From NCBI RefSeq assembly GCF_001422445.1, contig NZ_LMNA01000029.1, forward strand, positions 100,661 to 164,660: DNA of 64,000 nt. Reading direction: 5' to 3'. Below, piece by piece: positions 1 to 6,434 of the stretch. The notes beneath the pieces are model-generated. The model was not told the origin of the DNA, made no database searches, and worked only from the letters and a program-made list of their open reading frames with translations. Made by a program: the position numbers and the translations under genes. Numbering within the stretch: the first letter of the stretch is position 1; each line of letters opens with the position of its first letter. Source of the DNA: Pseudorhodoferax sp. Leaf274. GTDB taxonomy: Bacteria > Pseudomonadota > Gammaproteobacteria > Burkholderiales > Burkholderiaceae_C.

Positions 1-588
1 CTCGCCGCGTGCGCTCACGGCGCCGCCTCCTCGCGGTCGCGCGGGCCCACACGTCGGCTTGGGTCGGCGGCTGGCGCGGTTCGCGCTGGCGTCGATCCCC
101 GCTGCGCGTGGCCCCTCGCCGCGTGCGCTCACGGCGCCGCCTCCTCGCGGTCGCGCGGGCCCACACGTCGGCTTGGGTCGGCGGCTGGCGCGGTTCGCGC
201 TGGCGTCGATCCCCGCTGCGCGTGGCCCCTCGCCGCGTGCGCTTACGGCGCCGCCTCCTCGCGGTCGCGCGGGCCCACACGTCGGCTTGGGTCGGCGGCT
301 GGCGCGGTTCGCGCTGGCGTCGATCCCCGCTGCGCGTGGCCCCTCGCCGCGTGCGCTCACGGCGCCGCCTCCTCGCGGTCGCGCGGGCCCACACGTCGGC
401 TTGGGTCGGCGGCTGGCGCGGTTCGCGCTGGCGTCGATCCCCGCTGCGCGTGGCCCCTCGCCGTGTGCGCTCACGGCGCCGCCTCCTCGCGGTCGTGCGG
501 GCCCACACGTCGGCTTGGGTCGGCGGCTGGCGCCGTTCGCGCTGGCGTCGATCCCCGCTGCGCGTGGCCCCTCGCCGCGTGCGCTCAC
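1..588 (-). CDS. N-terminal part of a gene downstream of the alpha-2-macroglobulin, made of 38-residue repeats (possible pbpC)
   Basis: On the minus strand a frame opens at GTG 588-586, overlapping the TGA of the alpha-2-macroglobulin gene (GTGA), and stays open for 196 codons to the window edge. The product would be five copies of a 38-residue Arg/Pro/Gly/Ala-rich unit beginning VSARGEGPRAAG. In many proteobacteria the gene after a YfhM-type alpha-2-macroglobulin is pbpC (penicillin-binding protein 1C), so this may be its cytoplasmic N-terminus, but no PbpC domain is visible here. Because each unit has its own Shine-Dalgarno and GTG, translation could begin at any of several copies (588, 474, 360, 132, 18) or outside the window, in which case part or all of this stretch is leader. 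Partial at its 3' end. Confidence 0.4.
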   Translation of the reverse strand, partial: MSARGEGPRAAGIDASANGASRRPKPTCGPARPRGGGAVSAHGEGPRAAGIDASANRASRRPKPTCGPARPRGGGAVSARGEGPRAAGIDASANRASRRPKPTCGPARPRGGGAVSARGEGPRAAGIDASANRASRRPKPTCGPARPRGGGAVSARGEGPRAAGIDASANRASRRPKPTCGPARPRGGGAVSARGE

Positions 589-600
589 GGCGCCGCCTCC
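1..600. repeat. Tandem 114-bp minisatellite, five full units plus 30 bp
   Basis: Units begin at 1, 115, 229, 343 and 457, with a 30-bp partial copy at 571-600; the array may continue to the left of the window. Units are nearly identical (single changes near 244, 464, 496 and 533). The period is 38 codons, so reading frames are preserved. On the minus strand each unit carries AGGAGG, seven bases, then GTG, so each unit copies a ribosome binding site and start codon; in the unit starting at 229 the GTG is GTA. The 30-bp partial copy contains the last codons and the stop of the alpha-2-macroglobulin gene. Confidence 0.95.
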
Positions 601-3600
601 ACCTTCACCCGCGCGTTCGGCAGCTCGCCGAACATCTCGGGCGCGTACATGGCCTCCACGCGCGTGGGCGGCAGCGCGAACTCGCCCACGTTGTTGAGCC
701 GCACCGTGTAGCTGGTCTTGACCTCGCCCTTGGGCAGGAAGCCGTAGTAGCTGCGGAAGGCCTCGAAGCCGCGTTCCTCGTAGGCGGGCCAGGTGTTGCC
801 GCCGCTGCGCTCGCCCTGGGTGGCGATGGCCCCGATCGTTGTGTCGCGGCCCAGGCCGCTGCCCAGGATGGTGGCGCCGCCCGGCACCGGGTCGGACAGC
901 ACGACCCAGCTCATGTCCTGCGCGGCCGTCACGGTGATGGTGATGCGCAGGATGTCGCCGCGCGTGGTGCGGCCGGGCCGCGCCTGCTCGATGGGCACCA
1001 CCTCGCGCGCGATGCGGTAGCCGCCATCGAACGGCGCCTTCAGTTCCACCGCGGCCAGCGACTGCAGCGTGAGCCAGGGCTTGCCGCTGCCCTCGTGCGT
1101 GGCCTGCAGCGTGGCGGCGCCGGTGCCGGGCCAGGGCAGGAACTGGGCGGCAGGCGCACCCTTGCCCGGCCAGTCGGCGCGCACGCTCTCGCTGCCCAGT
1201 TGCGCGCGCGTGCTGCCGCTCACGGGGTCGGCCTCGTACCTGGCCGAGAACTTGCGCAGCGCCAGGCTGCCCCAGAGGTTGGCCGTGGTGGTCTGCCAGG
1301 CGCCGCGCTGCTGGCGCGCGATGAGCCCGCTGGCCAGCCGGCCCATATCGGCCTGCCAGCCGGCTTCGTTCTGCACGGCCAGCAGCAGGCGGGCGGCATT
1401 GGCGTCGGTGTTGGCCATCAGCCACCACCAGGCATCGCCCTGCTCGGTGGAGAAGCCCACGCGCGTGCCCGAGAACGCGAGCCGCGTGCGCAGCAGCTGC
1501 TGGGCCTGCTCCAGCCGCTGGGCGCGCTGCGGCACGTCGGGCACGCGCTGCAGGATCTGCAGCCAGTCCAGCAGCGCATGCGTGGGCCACTGCTCGGGCA
1601 CGAGCGTGAGGCTGGACACCATCCGGCCTTGTGCGCGGCCCGTGCGCGACAGCGCCTCCAGCGCCGCGAGCTTGCGCACGTCCAGGTCGGCGCGCGGGCT
1701 CCAGAAGCTGCGCTGCAGGCGGCCCTCGACGAAGGCCAGCAAGCCGTCCTCCATCTGGCGGCGCTGGGCCTCGGGCAGCGCGAAGCGCGGATCGAGCGCG
1801 GCCGCCTCGTGGGTCACGGCCAGCAGGTAGGCCGTCAGCGTGTCGCTGCCGCGCGCGGCCTCGCCGTCGCGCGGCGGGAAGTAGTTGGCCAGGCCGTCGC
1901 TGTCCAGGTAGGTGGGCAGCTGGGCCACCACGCCCTTCCACAGGGCTTCGTCCTCCAGGCCCAGCGCGCGGCTGGCGCTTTGCTCCAGGCAGCTGTAGGG
2001 GTAGCGTTGGAACCAGTCGCGCACGCCGGGCAGGCCATCGGCCAGGCGGGGCTGCAGCGCGAGCGACAGGCCGCCGCGCGGCTTGCCGTTGGTGACCAGA
2101 GCCTGCGCCGGCGGCTTCACCTGCTGCGTGAACGGCCCGTCCAGCTGCACCAGCGTGGCCTGCTGCACGGCGATCGGCACGGCCGGCACGATGCGCTGGC
2201 TGGCCTTGAGCGCATCGCGCGCATTGCCCGACAGGTCGCGCGCCTCGACCTCCCAGAGGATGGCCTCGGTGCGCGTGTGCGCCAGCTGGGTCGGGGCCAC
2301 CACCTCCCAGGTCGCCTCGCGCGCTTCGTTCGGTGGTATCTCGATGGTCTGCGGCGCCAACTCCAGCAGCGTGGCCCGCGGCTTGAACTCCACGCGCATG
2401 GCCTTGGCCGTGGTGTTGCGCAGCGTGAACTGGGCGCGGAAGCGGTCGTCCTCGCGCACCAGCGGCGGCAGGCCGCTGATGATCTGCAGGTCCTGCGTGG
2501 TGCGCACCGTGGCCTGGCCGGTGCCGAACAAGGCCTGGCCGCTGTCGGCCACGGCGACGATGCGGAAACTGGTCAGCGCGTCGTTGAGCGGCACCTCCAC
2601 CGTGGCCTGGCCCTGCGCGTCCAGCACCACGCGCGGGTTCCACAGCAGCAGCGTGTCCAGCAGCTCGCGCGTGGGGTTGCGGCCGCCGCCGCCGCCGGCT
2701 GGCACGGCCTTGCGGCCGTAGTGGCGCCTGCCGATGATTTCCATCTGCGCGGTGGCTGTGTGCACGCCCCAGGCGCGGCGCTGCAGCATCGCGTCCAGCA
2801 GGTCCCAGCTGTCGTTGGGTGCCAGTTCCAGCAGCGCCTGGTCGACGGCGGCCAGCGCCACCTCGGCGCCCGCGGCCGGCTTGCCATCGGGCAGCCTGGC
2901 ACTGATGCGCACCTGCACACGCTCGCGCACCTGGTAGCTCGTGCGGTCGGGCTGCACCTGCACGTCGATGCGGTGCGCGCGCGTGCCCACCTTGAGCTCG
3001 GCCACGCCCAGGCGGAAGGCCGGCTTGGAGAGGTCGACCATGGCGCTCGGCGCCACCACCTCGCCGCGCGCATTCCAGAACGCCGACCACCAGCTGCGCG
3101 GCGCCTTGTAGCCCCAGGTGAAGAACGAGTACCACGGCACCTCGCGCAGCCGGCCGCGCAGCACCAGCGCGCTGACGTAGACGTTGGGCCCCCAGCCTTC
3201 CTGCACCTTCAGGCGCAGCGTCGGGTCCTGCCCGCTCAGTTCCACCACCTCGTGCCAGAGCACGCCCTCGCGCTCCACCGTGACCAGGGCCGTGGCCTGG
3301 CGGAACGGCATGCGCACCTGCAGCAGGGCGGTGTCGCCGGGCTGCACTTCGCGCTGCTCGGGCAGCAGGTCGATGCGGTCGTGGTTCTCGCCGCCGAACC
3401 ACAGTTCGCCCTGGCGCGTGACCCAGACGGAGCTCGACGCCTGCACGCTGCGGCCCGCCTCGTCCTTGGCCGTGACGACCAGCTCGACCTCGCCGCCCTG
3501 GCCCAGCTGGGCCTCGCACAGCAGCAGGCCGCGCGCGTCGCTCTTGCCGCTGCACACGCTGCCCAGGTCCTTGGTCTCGCGCTTGGTGTCGTAGGTGTAG

Positions 3601-6434
3601 AAGCCGCCCACCATGCGCTTGCGGCTGGTCGTGGCCACATGGGCCTGGGCGCGCACGTCCAGTGCCACGCCGGCCTTGGGCTTGCCGTTGAGGTCGAGCG
3701 CCAGCGCCTGCAGCTGCACCTTGCCGCGCGCCGAGACCCAGCCCTCGGTCTTGAGGCCGGCCACCACGCCGGCTGGCCAGACCGTGTGCGTGCCGCGCAG
3801 GGTCTGGATCTCGCCGTTCGGGTCGGCGTAGCGGGCTTCCAGCAGCAGCTCCTGCGCGCGCGGGGCGGCCGGGATGTCGGGCAGCGCCACGCGGCCCGCG
3901 CCCTGGGCGTCCAGCGTCACGGGCAGCTTGTTGGCGATCACGCGCGGGCCGTTGGCGGCCTCGGATTCCTCCTCGCCTTCGTCGGAGTTGCCCTGGCGCC
4001 GGTCGCGCGGCGGCGCGAAGCTGAACGCGTCATAGCCGTCGAAATGCAGCCAGCGCTCGCGCAGCAATGCCGAGACCTCGACCGGCAGCCTGGCCGCGCC
4101 GCCGCCGGCCACGTAGTTCACCTGCACGTTGGCGGCCAGGCTGCCGGGCTGCACCAGCGGCCCGCCGGTGGCCGGCGCGATGCGGCCCTCCATCACGGGC
4201 AGGCGGAACTCCTCCACGCGGAAACGGCCCGACACGAGGCTGCGCTCGGCCTCCTGGTCGATGCCCACGAGTTCGACCTGGTACTCGCCGAGCTTGGCCG
4301 CGGGCGGCAGCTTGAAGCTGCTCTGCGCGCTGCGCCCGCCGGTGGCCGTGTCGCGCCAGGCCAGCGGCTGCTCGAACTGCTGGCCGCTGCCCACGTGGGT
4401 GATGCGCAAGGTGGCCGGGCGCCAGGCGGCCGGCGCCAGGCCGGCGCTGGTCTCGGTGCGCAGCAGGTGCTTCATGCCCACGGTCTCGCCCGCGCGCAGC
4501 AGCGTGCGGTCCAGGATCGTGTGGGCGCGCAGGTCCGGCGCTACCTCCTGGCTGGTCGGCAGGTCGAAGCGCCAGGGCTCGATGCCGCGGTTCCAGTCGC
4601 TGAAGGTGAAGGCCAGGTCGTCCACGCCATCGCTGCCGCGCGCGCGCGCCGTGACGAACCAGGCGGCAGCGCCTTCGTCCTGCGCACACGACGGCGGTTC
4701 GGGCGACAAACCCTTGAGCTGCACGACGCCCTGGCCGTCGGTCTGGCCGCTGGCCACCTCGCGGCCGCGGCAGTCGCTGACCGCCACGCGCGCGCCGGCC
4801 ACGGGCTTGCCGCTGTCCAGCGCGGTGACCCAGGCCATCGCGTTCTCGCGGCCGAGCTTGAAATGCACGCCCAGGTTGGTGACCAGCGCGGCCGTGCGCA
4901 CGACCATGGTGCGCTCCGGGCCGTAGCGTTCGTCGAGCAAGGCCTCGCCCAGCTGGCGCGAGGAGATCTCGACCACGTGAAAGCCTGGCGTCATCGGGAT
5001 GCCCACGACCTCGAACGGCCGCGCCTCGTTGCCATCCGGTGCCGGCAGCTTGAGCTGCTGCACGCCGTTCTGCCCGGCCAGCAGCGACAGCATGCGCGAC
5101 TGCACCCAGTTCTTCTGGTCGGGGTCGACCACGCGCGGCAGCGGCCGCCTGAGGTCGGCGGCGGCCTGCTTGCGCTCGACCTGGAAGCGGTCGTAGCGCT
5201 GCACCTTGCGCCACCAGGCCAGGATCTCGGCATCGCTCTGCGGCCGCAGCGTGGCCACCTGGCCGTCGGCGATGCGCAGCGCACCCACGCCGGGCGCGGC
5301 CTCGATGCGGCGCACGGTCACGGGCAGCAGGGGCGGGCCGTCGGGCTCGGCCAGGCGCTCGACGATGCCGAAGGGCGCGGAGGCGAACTTGGCCAGCGGC
5401 GGCATGGCGCCCGTGCGCACGGCCAGCGGGAAGCTGTCGGCGTTGTCCAGCGGCCGGTCGGAGGCGTCGCGCAGCTTGGCGGGCAGCGTCAGCTGGTAGT
5501 CCGTGCTTTCGGTGAACGGCGGGTCGAAGCGCAGGCCGTCGACGAGTGCGTCCGTGTTGTCGTCGATCTGCGGCGCGATGCTGCGCCCGCCGCCCTGCAG
5601 CCGGATGGCGGCCGCCTGCTCGCGCGGCAGCGGGGCGCTGAACTGCAGGCGCAGCGGCCGGATCGGCAGGCAGTCGGCCTGGGCGTTCTCGCGCTCGCAG
5701 CTGAAGTTGGCCGTGAAGGGCGCGCGCACGGTGAAGTCGAAGCGCCGCTCCACCCGGTTGGCGACGCCGCTGGGCGTGGCCACGCCGGGCCCGTAGACGA
5801 TCTGCAGGTCGGCCGAGGGCGGCAGGCGCCGGTTGCAGGCCAGCGTCTGCACGGCCAGCGGCGCCTTGGCGGCCTCCTGTTCGAGCCGGCGCGCCTGGAG
5901 CAGCGCGGCGCGTTCGGCGCCCTCGACGAGGCGCACGGGCACGCGCTCGCCGATGCCCTCGACGGCGCACCAGACGTTGGCGCGCACGCTCTCCAGCGTG
6001 GCCGGGCCGTTGAGACGCAGCACGAAGAACTGCTGCTCGTCGACCTGGCCGCCGTAGGGCCAGGTGCTGCGCACCACCGGGCCGCCTGTCTGGAAATTGA
6101 AGCGCGTGCGACCCGTAAGTTCCAGACTGGTGTTGGCCGTCAGTTCGCAGCGCTGGCCGGGCGGCAGGTCGTTCTCGAACTGCCAGACCCATTCGCGCGC
6201 GTTGTTCCAGCGGCCGGTGCCGCGGCCGGCGGCCTCGTCGGCGCAGCGCACCGTGGCCGGTGCGGCCGCGCGCGCATCGCCGAAGTGGGTGGCGTCCTGG
6301 TCGAAACGCACGACGACCTGGCGCGCCTCGCGCACCTCGCCCTGGGGCGTGACGGAAGTGATCTGCAGGGCCTGGGCGGCGGGGGCGGCCAGGGCGGCAA
6401 GGAGGAGGGTGGGAAGCAGGGAGTTGAGCGTCAC
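585..6434 (-). CDS. Bacterial alpha-2-macroglobulin family protein (YfhM-like), thioester type
   Basis: A 1949-residue protein, within the range expected for bacterial alpha-2-macroglobulins, which trap attacking proteases in the periplasm. A signal peptide covers about residues 1-22 (hydrophobic LLPTLLLAALAAPAAQA, cleavage after AQA). It has no lipobox cysteine, unlike the E. coli lipoprotein, so it is probably soluble. The thioester motif CLEQ is intact (C1482 to Q1485) within YPYSCLEQSASRAL. The start is GTG with AAGGA eight bases upstream. Macroglobulin-like beta domains precede the thioester region, and the C-terminus ends in EAAP inside the minisatellite. It lies 34 bp after the dnaJ-like gene, so the two may be cotranscribed. 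The downstream partner in other genomes is pbpC, which would repair peptidoglycan after attack. Confidence 0.93.
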   Translation of the reverse strand: MTLNSLLPTLLLAALAAPAAQALQITSVTPQGEVREARQVVVRFDQDATHFGDARAAAPATVRCADEAAGRGTGRWNNAREWVWQFENDLPPGQRCELTANTSLELTGRTRFNFQTGGPVVRSTWPYGGQVDEQQFFVLRLNGPATLESVRANVWCAVEGIGERVPVRLVEGAERAALLQARRLEQEAAKAPLAVQTLACNRRLPPSADLQIVYGPGVATPSGVANRVERRFDFTVRAPFTANFSCERENAQADCLPIRPLRLQFSAPLPREQAAAIRLQGGGRSIAPQIDDNTDALVDGLRFDPPFTESTDYQLTLPAKLRDASDRPLDNADSFPLAVRTGAMPPLAKFASAPFGIVERLAEPDGPPLLPVTVRRIEAAPGVGALRIADGQVATLRPQSDAEILAWWRKVQRYDRFQVERKQAAADLRRPLPRVVDPDQKNWVQSRMLSLLAGQNGVQQLKLPAPDGNEARPFEVVGIPMTPGFHVVEISSRQLGEALLDERYGPERTMVVRTAALVTNLGVHFKLGRENAMAWVTALDSGKPVAGARVAVSDCRGREVASGQTDGQGVVQLKGLSPEPPSCAQDEGAAAWFVTARARGSDGVDDLAFTFSDWNRGIEPWRFDLPTSQEVAPDLRAHTILDRTLLRAGETVGMKHLLRTETSAGLAPAAWRPATLRITHVGSGQQFEQPLAWRDTATGGRSAQSSFKLPPAAKLGEYQVELVGIDQEAERSLVSGRFRVEEFRLPVMEGRIAPATGGPLVQPGSLAANVQVNYVAGGGAARLPVEVSALLRERWLHFDGYDAFSFAPPRDRRQGNSDEGEEESEAANGPRVIANKLPVTLDAQGAGRVALPDIPAAPRAQELLLEARYADPNGEIQTLRGTHTVWPAGVVAGLKTEGWVSARGKVQLQALALDLNGKPKAGVALDVRAQAHVATTSRKRMVGGFYTYDTKRETKDLGSVCSGKSDARGLLLCEAQLGQGGEVELVVTAKDEAGRSVQASSSVWVTRQGELWFGGENHDRIDLLPEQREVQPGDTALLQVRMPFRQATALVTVEREGVLWHEVVELSGQDPTLRLKVQEGWGPNVYVSALVLRGRLREVPWYSFFTWGYKAPRSWWSAFWNARGEVVAPSAMVDLSKPAFRLGVAELKVGTRAHRIDVQVQPDRTSYQVRERVQVRISARLPDGKPAAGAEVALAAVDQALLELAPNDSWDLLDAMLQRRAWGVHTATAQMEIIGRRHYGRKAVPAGGGGGRNPTRELLDTLLLWNPRVVLDAQGQATVEVPLNDALTSFRIVAVADSGQALFGTGQATVRTTQDLQIISGLPPLVREDDRFRAQFTLRNTTAKAMRVEFKPRATLLELAPQTIEIPPNEAREATWEVVAPTQLAHTRTEAILWEVEARDLSGNARDALKASQRIVPAVPIAVQQATLVQLDGPFTQQVKPPAQALVTNGKPRGGLSLALQPRLADGLPGVRDWFQRYPYSCLEQSASRALGLEDEALWKGVVAQLPTYLDSDGLANYFPPRDGEAARGSDTLTAYLLAVTHEAAALDPRFALPEAQRRQMEDGLLAFVEGRLQRSFWSPRADLDVRKLAALEALSRTGRAQGRMVSSLTLVPEQWPTHALLDWLQILQRVPDVPQRAQRLEQAQQLLRTRLAFSGTRVGFSTEQGDAWWWLMANTDANAARLLLAVQNEAGWQADMGRLASGLIARQQRGAWQTTTANLWGSLALRKFSARYEADPVSGSTRAQLGSESVRADWPGKGAPAAQFLPWPGTGAATLQATHEGSGKPWLTLQSLAAVELKAPFDGGYRIAREVVPIEQARPGRTTRGDILRITITVTAAQDMSWVVLSDPVPGGATILGSGLGRDTTIGAIATQGERSGGNTWPAYEERGFEAFRSYYGFLPKGEVKTSYTVRLNNVGEFALPPTRVEAMYAPEMFGELPNARVKVEAAP

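Follow-up and report, generated by a model that had tools for sequence, protein, structure and literature searches.

The window, a 64,000-nucleotide stretch of the Pseudorhodoferax sp. Leaf274 genome (G000), opens with a tandem array on its minus strand (1..600; five 114-bp units plus a 30-bp stub) downstream of a minus-strand gene for a bacterial alpha-2-macroglobulin (A2M; 585..6434, 1949 aa), whose product scored above the Pfam cut-offs for bMG3, bMG10, A2M_BRD, MG2 and A2M. The 114-bp repeats had been noticed in a sequence-only reading of this DNA, and Tandem Repeats Finder recovered them with a period of 114, 5.3 copies, 98% matches and a score of 1172, against 53–76 for the nine remaining rows of the window. 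The A2M stop adjoins the array as that reading had described, with TGA at 585–587 overlapping the first GTG of the repeats at 586–588 in a GTGA motif (585..588, minus strand). The 5′ bases of the units on the minus strand lie at window positions 588, 474, 360, 246, 132 and 18 (converted from locus L009). The AGGAGG-N7-GTG arrangement claimed for each unit does recur, but the unit at 246 reads GTA (244..246, minus strand), which leaves a start codon in 5 of the 6 listed units. A search of the organism's own genome, Tandem Repeats Finder and the flanking sequence showed that the array reaches 108 bp past the left window edge (L009 5553–6260), for 6.2 copies in all. A single n at L009 5660, in the leftmost unit, sits at a CTC-n-CTC join and looks like an assembly join, so the copy number of the array in the assembly is unreliable. 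The five complete units differ from one another by 0–3 per 114 nt, and recent or ongoing slippage is a plausible source of this near-identity.

The A2M-proximal unit (475..588, 114 nt) shows the parts of the repeat, all on the minus strand. Directly 3′ of the GTGA lies a helix with a conserved tip (H1, 539..584), marked by compensatory changes. Next comes an arm, guide1 (ACGGCGCC, 529..536), which is the complement of GGCGCCGT at the A2M end and forms a helix with it in the alignment described below, and then guide2 (GCCGCC, 522..527), complementary, again by alignment, to the Shine-Dalgarno region ahead of the following start. That Shine-Dalgarno sequence and its spacer make up the 3′ end, D (AGGAGGCGGCGCC, 475..487). 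The upstream end, U (589..604), consists of the last bases of the A2M gene and lies outside the element; its final bases pair with guide1. Only the A2M-proximal unit of the six carries ACGGCGCC, and the other five have ACCGCGCC instead.

The sequence-only reading took the array for the start of the next gene, a tunable module possibly acting on pbpC. The left-hand sequence, once obtained, refuted this for G000. Immediately to the left, a convergent gene for a PIN-domain (VapC-like) protein (PF01850, 51.6 bits) is carried on the opposite strand with its stop abutting the array, together with a MazE/VapB-like antitoxin partner (PF04014, 21.1 bits, under its cut-off of 24.7). pbpC (Transgly, Transpeptidase, BiPBP_C) starts far outside the array at an ATG of its own (L009 4844, ~700 bp away); with this separate start and the vapBC-like pair in between, the array does not start pbpC in G000. 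The GTG frame is open all along the array, but it then runs antisense into the vapC-like gene and not into pbpC. The vapBC-like pair occupies L009 4840–5548, left of the window, between cassette and pbpC, and a palindrome, AGATATCATGGAAGATATCT, separates the diverging starts of the antitoxin gene and pbpC, so pbpC may now share the control region of the vapBC-like pair; as a guess, the palindrome could be an operator.

Relatives vary at this junction, with 0 units in G004, 1 in G002, 1 in G005 and 6 in G000. In G004 the A2M stop overlaps the pbpC GTG directly (GGAGGCGCCGTGAAG), and both the unit and the toxin pair are absent. G002 has a single unit between A2M and pbpC, 113 nt from start to start, and here the unit does what it does not do in G000: its end, AGGAGGTGGCGCCGTGA, gives pbpC an AGGAGG-N7-GTG. 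One 114-nt unit followed by a convergent vapC-like gene is found at A2M in G005, and by eye G001 and G017 have a vapC-like gene beside A2M and no unit. The underlying idea of a module that brings a ribosome-binding site and a start codon was borne out in part, as every unit of the family described below is a Shine-Dalgarno-plus-start cassette and pbpC adjoins A2M in relatives.

Relatives of the array unit are scattered through genomes, mainly of betaproteobacteria, and make up a family. With 18 copies as its input, a covariance model gave 19 matches at E≤0.01 in 13 places of G000, with 6 of the matches in the array (150 of 21,551 candidates scored), and matches at E≤0.001 in at least 16 of 100 genomes, its own included (at most 36 candidates scored per genome). 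The 69 model-found copies analyzed below are 71 model rows less six (two further L009 array units, the partial match L010 2426, L108 2492, and weak matches at L103 2327 and L035 1301) plus four tandem units unlisted by cmsearch (two in L019, one in L023, one in L120); the ends of overlapping matches were restored by hand at L034, L010, L021, L096 and L117. A scan of GTDB genomes for the hairpin-core pattern yielded at least 117 stretches, a set that overlaps the model-found copies in some rows (e.g. L137, L148, L176, L177). Among the 80 rows listed, titles were mostly betaproteobacteria or Burkholderiales, with the genera Nitrosospira, Nitrosovibrio, Thiobacillus, Polaromonas, Ramlibacter, Rivibacter, Variovorax and Pseudorhodoferax as well as Rhodocyclaceae and MAGs; several were titled just Pseudomonadota or Proteobacteria, two rows were a single Nevskiaceae MAG, and one was a Blastocatellia MAG. 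Assignment to a known RNA family was dropped, as Rfam returned no match at E≤1 across 14 loci. Tandem variants occur elsewhere too: at a ROK/ABC-ATPase junction that by eye is apparently one site, we found 1, 1 and 4 units in G000, G005 and G003 (L012, L043 and L019), which makes a natural copy-number series.

Copies of the family typically sit between a stop and a start, the ATG or GTG of the element and that of the downstream gene each being overlapped by the TGA of the reading frame before it. The element begins with [AGT]TGA in 60 of the 69 copies, and in 58 the TGA that overlaps this element start closes an upstream ORF of 60 codons or more. Within the element, a micro-ORF of ~36–39 codons in the typical copy stops exactly at a terminal [AGT]TGA overlapping the next start in 45/69; in these copies it is not fused to the following protein, and a tunable N-terminal repeat, as proposed for the array, misfits such intact members. 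A closed micro-ORF flanked by upstream and downstream ORFs of at least 60 codons is present in 34/69, and the downstream Shine-Dalgarno sequence is carried by the element. The distance from start to start was measurable in 59 copies (69 less the 10 without a terminal NTGA), being 107, 110, 113 or 116 nt in 46; it was in phase in 48, where one third would be expected if lengths were free, a comparison that is not a probability as the copies are related. It is the phase and not the peptide that is preserved, as compensating indels in L008, L021, L023 and L044 shift the frame within the element and change residues but keep the phase. Neighbours of operon type were identified by Pfam in G000, with branched-chain amino-acid permeases on both sides of L014, ABC ATPases on either side of L015, and a ROK/ABC pair at L012. 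For the hairpin-core set, double coupling was counted in 80 of the 117 stretches (94 matches, of which 7 lay at edges and 87 could be evaluated) and was found, by loose criteria, in 23/87. No stop codon was present in the 26 nt before the core in 27/87, and others followed TAA or TAG or were seemingly intergenic. The hairpin family is thus wider than the coupled form, and coupling is not the whole story. This set includes a palindromic type that is common in Nitrosospira.

Covariation points to two helical systems in the RNA of the element. In an RNAalifold alignment of 18 copies, a hairpin directly 3′ of the AUGA and a helix joining the downstream Shine-Dalgarno sequence to an internal arm both showed compensatory changes. 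When the alignment was extended upstream, the bases that end the upstream gene, as far as the AU of AUGA, paired with the segment after GCGA. For the whole structure, assessed in 16 type-A copies picked for alignability, 30 pairs had 95.8% of cells paired and 11 of the 30 were changed on both sides; none of 500 shuffles reached either value. The U-guide1 helix alone was 90.6% paired and scored 0.404 versus 0.196 (sd 0.024), and sliding its partners by 1 to 3 columns reduced pairing to 27–57%. Covariation was also seen between guide2 and the downstream Shine-Dalgarno sequence. Unusual stability of single sequences was mostly absent, with z-scores of −2.6 to +0.4 in 10 sequences, 7 of them above −1.5, and the lowest-energy folds of four of ten (L013, L012, L092 and the window unit) lacked the U-guide1 helix; thermodynamics alone is therefore no proof. 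A hammerhead-like reading of the AUGA and GAA around the hairpin was dropped by reasoning only, since U pairs directly with guide1.

Guide1 also matches the host gene end locus by locus. The best-register comparison used 54 of the 69 copies (each tandem locus represented by one copy, and certain weak or degenerate copies omitted) less L091, giving 53 copies with 36 distinct U. With the best of 16 registers taken for both, 23 of the 36 distinct U reached at least 7 of 8 when set against the arm of the same locus, a level that 7.3% of mismatched loci attained. The 3′ end D matched guide1 at 7 of 8 or better in 11/36 distinct loci (0 of 5,000 shuffles on the mean, with the reservation, here and in the other shuffle tests, that family copies are related and shuffles overstate independence). 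As D too matches above chance, U-guide1 and D-guide1 pairing are not fully separable; where U and D differ, U was the better fit in 17, D in 2, and the two were equal in 7. In a fixed register, which also left aside L123, L106 and L115 (50 copies, 31 distinct U) and kept the one-base-off pairers L010, L113 and L107, which scored low, 16 of 31 distinct U reached 6.5 versus 11.2% for mismatched loci, and the mean was 5.85 versus 4.63 (0 of 10,000 shuffles). In the hairpin-core set (all 117 stretches, 136 matches, 123 kept, 114 distinct), at least 8 contiguous Watson-Crick pairs were found in 27/114 versus 3.1%, again with 0 of 2,000 shuffles on the mean.

Changes between species point the same way. 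Ramlibacter loci L155, L181 and L185 look orthologous (L155 is 88–89% identical to the other two over 600 nt upstream); their arms differ between species yet stay perfectly complementary over 15–16 nt, and one compensatory pair separates Polaromonas L156 from L200. Perfect stems of 15, 14, 15 and 16 nt lie behind gene stops in Ramlibacter L155, L179, L181 and L185. These stems include the stop codon, and the opposite arm matches TAA in L155 and TGA in L185. At L013 the arm, GTGGCGC, exactly complements GCGCCAC of the empty site in G002 and G003, but only in a register shifted by two bases; this was not relied on, as the match is poor in the standard register and the empty site in G004 differs. 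The notion of a fixed guide that chooses targets is disfavoured, as copies in one genome carry different guides that match their own sites, and this variety argues against a fixed targeting guide.

Sites with and without an element were compared at several junctions. Between A2M and pbpC, GGCGCCGTGA occurs once in the empty G004 site, and in G002 it flanks the unit on either side. At the L013 junction G002 and G004 lack the element (as does G003, judged by its 3′ side) and ATGAGCGAAGG is continuous, and G000 has 113 nt between two copies of ATGA at this place; GCCACATGAGCG is present once in G002 and G003, and G000 has it at the 3′ end of the element and reads GCGACATGAGCG on the 5′ side, the same as the empty G004. 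An empty site together with a duplicated junction, as in target-site duplication, was thus seen at two junctions only, A2M/pbpC and L013. The element is also absent from the L014 site in G001, G002 and G004 and from the L011 site in G001, G002 and G003, where the flanks are more diverged. Direct repeats of host sequence flank L158 and L183 (19 and 21 nt, partly by eye). The repeated 19 and 21 nt belong to the coding start of a gene that begins MTLTELKYIVAV, and this start, which reads TELKYIVAV, is apparently left intact; the gene is cysB-like by eye. In the hairpin-core set the direct-repeat signal includes tandem copies and overstates target duplication. Taken together, we infer from these comparisons that the element is mobile now or was formerly, inserting at NTGA and duplicating the junction.

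No mobilizing enzyme was found among the one candidate family examined, PF01797 (RAYT-like). Each of six genus genomes has one such gene (C2:47173–47457 in G000, and likewise in five relatives; L247–L252), and RAYT was rejected as the mobilizer because nine 3.3-kb loci around PF01797 genes contained no copy of the core motif at up to 5 substitutions. Spread by plasmid or phage is likewise unsupported, one type-A copy having had no blastn match at E≤1e-5 in plasmid and phage collections.

Several other accounts of the array and its family can be weighed against these data. The claim that the array tunes pbpC through multiple ribosome-binding sites and an Arg/Pro/Gly repeat of varying length at the N terminus draws on two real features, the Shine-Dalgarno-GTG in each unit and the single unit that serves pbpC in G002. 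In G000, however, pbpC has its own distant ATG with oppositely directed vapBC-like genes in between, one unit reads GTA, and the frame ends at the next start in 45/69 family copies, and we regard this account as hardly credible. It is also very unlikely that the product of the micro-ORF is a conserved peptide with a function (MSAxGEGPRAAGIDAS...). Its N-terminal residues do seem conserved in many copies, but that conservation follows the hairpin, the C-terminal half is widely variable, and the compensating indels in L008, L021 and L044 alter residues while the length stays in phase. Vertical inheritance of an immobile cis-regulatory RNA, with presence and absence explained by loss, would suit loci that by eye seem common to species (L012/L043/L019; L094/L098/L125; L022/L089/L090/L016). 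This appears unlikely in view of the 13 places in one genome, the A2M/pbpC and L013 junctions that are empty in relatives, the absence of the element from the L014 site (G001, G002, G004) and the L011 site (G001, G002, G003), and the direct repeats of ~20 nt around L158 and L183.

A stronger competitor concerns the origin of the complementarity. Quasipalindrome template switching is a mutational process, and fold-back of the hairpin during replication could copy the flank into the arm, so that U-guide1 complementarity would be a by-product without selection on RNA. The very long perfect stems behind gene stops in L155, L179, L181 and L185 lie outside most coding constraint, and the arms of the orthologous-looking Ramlibacter loci L155, L181 and L185 have changed and are still perfectly complementary, both as such copying would predict. 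Simple copying should, on the other hand, erase the GA/GA mismatch by the stop and the other internal loops, which stay unpaired in the type-A alignment, and guide2 covaries with the downstream Shine-Dalgarno sequence as well. We consider fold-back copying a real possibility, though on balance not the expected one. The flank-complementary arm may have arisen during insertion, by fold-back copying or by selection.

The array is probably best explained as a tandem expansion of a small dispersed stop-start cassette, now a relic in G000, that relays ribosomes from gene to gene. Both the mobility and the translational function of the cassette are proposed on comparative grounds. By covariation, the 6–8 bases that end the upstream gene, as far as the AU of AUGA, pair with guide1 around the conserved hairpin, and guide2 covers the downstream Shine-Dalgarno sequence in a second helix. 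Ribosomes finishing the upstream gene would melt the first helix and restart at the overlapping start; they would then translate the micro-ORF, open the second helix, stop, and restart at the downstream gene. Such a relay would make the insertion transparent to coupled translation, and the downstream start would stay closed if the upstream gene were not translated. In G000 the vapBC-like pair between the cassette and pbpC leaves the cassette without a downstream gene, and with a unit of 114 nt rather than 113 the frame is no longer closed. A cassette lacking a downstream gene or a closed frame would be free to expand into a relic array, and the mutated arm that five of its six units share could have arisen without constraint.

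A further proposal, which we advance tentatively and hold to be somewhat improbable, is that these ~110-nt betaproteobacterial elements are mobile, insert where the stop of one gene and the start of the next overlap, and rewrite their internal arm into the reverse complement of the bases that end the host gene, making a host-specific RNA lock and a self-fitting, transparent insertion. If this were true, intact copies would lock a stop codon that is opened only by ribosomes finishing the host gene, in series with the lock on the Shine-Dalgarno sequence.

Among known systems, the mycobacterial MIRU is the nearest kind; by analogy the G000 family is MIRU-like in its working, and we do not assign it as MIRU. 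The inner ORF of a MIRU overlaps both neighbouring genes by 4 nt, and MIRUs insert at NTGA stop-start junctions in operons. The source work for MIRU features is reportedly that of Supply et al. 1997. In the present family, a two-sided 4-nt overlap is seen in the 45/69 copies closed by [AGT]TGA, in the 34/69 with both flanking ORFs and in 23/87 of the hairpin-core set; placement at NTGA junctions is seen in the 58/69 upstream ORFs, in the Pfam neighbours on both sides of L012–L015 in G000 and at the empty sites; and tandem copy number varies, both at the ROK/ABC-ATPase junction (1/1/4 in G000/G005/G003) and at A2M (0/1/1/6 in G004/G002/G005/G000). The host of the array is Pseudorhodoferax and not a mycobacterium. 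Compared by MIRU descriptions alone, this family differs in its covarying RNA helices and its arm complementary to the host gene end. Passages of two papers describe MIRUs as short repeats of apparent mobility whose insertion sites are start codons, with an inner ORF that couples at −4 nt (PMC12548453), and give sizes of 53 and 77 bp (PMC4213456), against mostly 107–116 nt from start to start for this family of Betaproteobacteria. Short dispersed units, several copies per locus varying between strains and apparent mobility are shared with MIRUs as those passages present them, and the passages give no mechanism of spread (PMC12548453, PMC4213456).

Classical translational coupling and transposon guides offer narrower parallels. 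An inhibitory hairpin can keep a downstream Shine-Dalgarno sequence closed until ribosomes pass. Unlike classical coupling, the present arrangement is a repeated cassette, and another helix, at the upstream stop, stands in series with it. Delivery of ribosomes to a coupled gene by a short upstream ORF is described in a passage of PMC12548453. REP/BIME sequences with TnpA-REP (RAYT) and IS200/IS605 elements resemble the family in their small dispersed hairpins and in a "guide" that pairs with a neighbouring site, the IS200/IS605 guides being, in the part of PMC8266576 at hand, tetranucleotides 5′ to a palindrome that choose cleavage sites. The arm described here, of ~8 nt, is on the 3′ side of the hairpin and varies from copy to copy, in contrast to the guides in that text, and core copies are not beside a RAYT-like gene in the nine 3.3-kb loci; the likeness to IS200/IS605 guides is an analogy only. 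No description of the element was found in the literature searched, a search outside which most subscription papers fall, and a text search with three stretches of the conserved core gave no match for two of them. None of the papers that these searches found describes an arm that pairs in this way with the host gene's last bases.

Natural copies of the family are numerous in bacteria other than mycobacteria, largely environmental ones, and come with empty sites and tandem variants; the family predicts testable rules of in-phase length, pairing and coupling. Its members could supply natural couplers to those who design operons, and a minisatellite at the end of a gene may be a coupler that has become detached rather than a protein-tuning repeat. 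Among the hairpin-core records, those of Nitrosospira and Nitrosovibrio (L128, L133, L139, L149, L159, L167, L171, L174, L178, L197, L199 and L204) have the core within longer, seemingly intergenic multi-hairpin repeats, which are in tandem in L204. A separate sequence of ~260 nt just downstream of the L011 copy (about L011 2600–2877) is highly repeated in G000–G004; it matches on both strands and is partly self-complementary.
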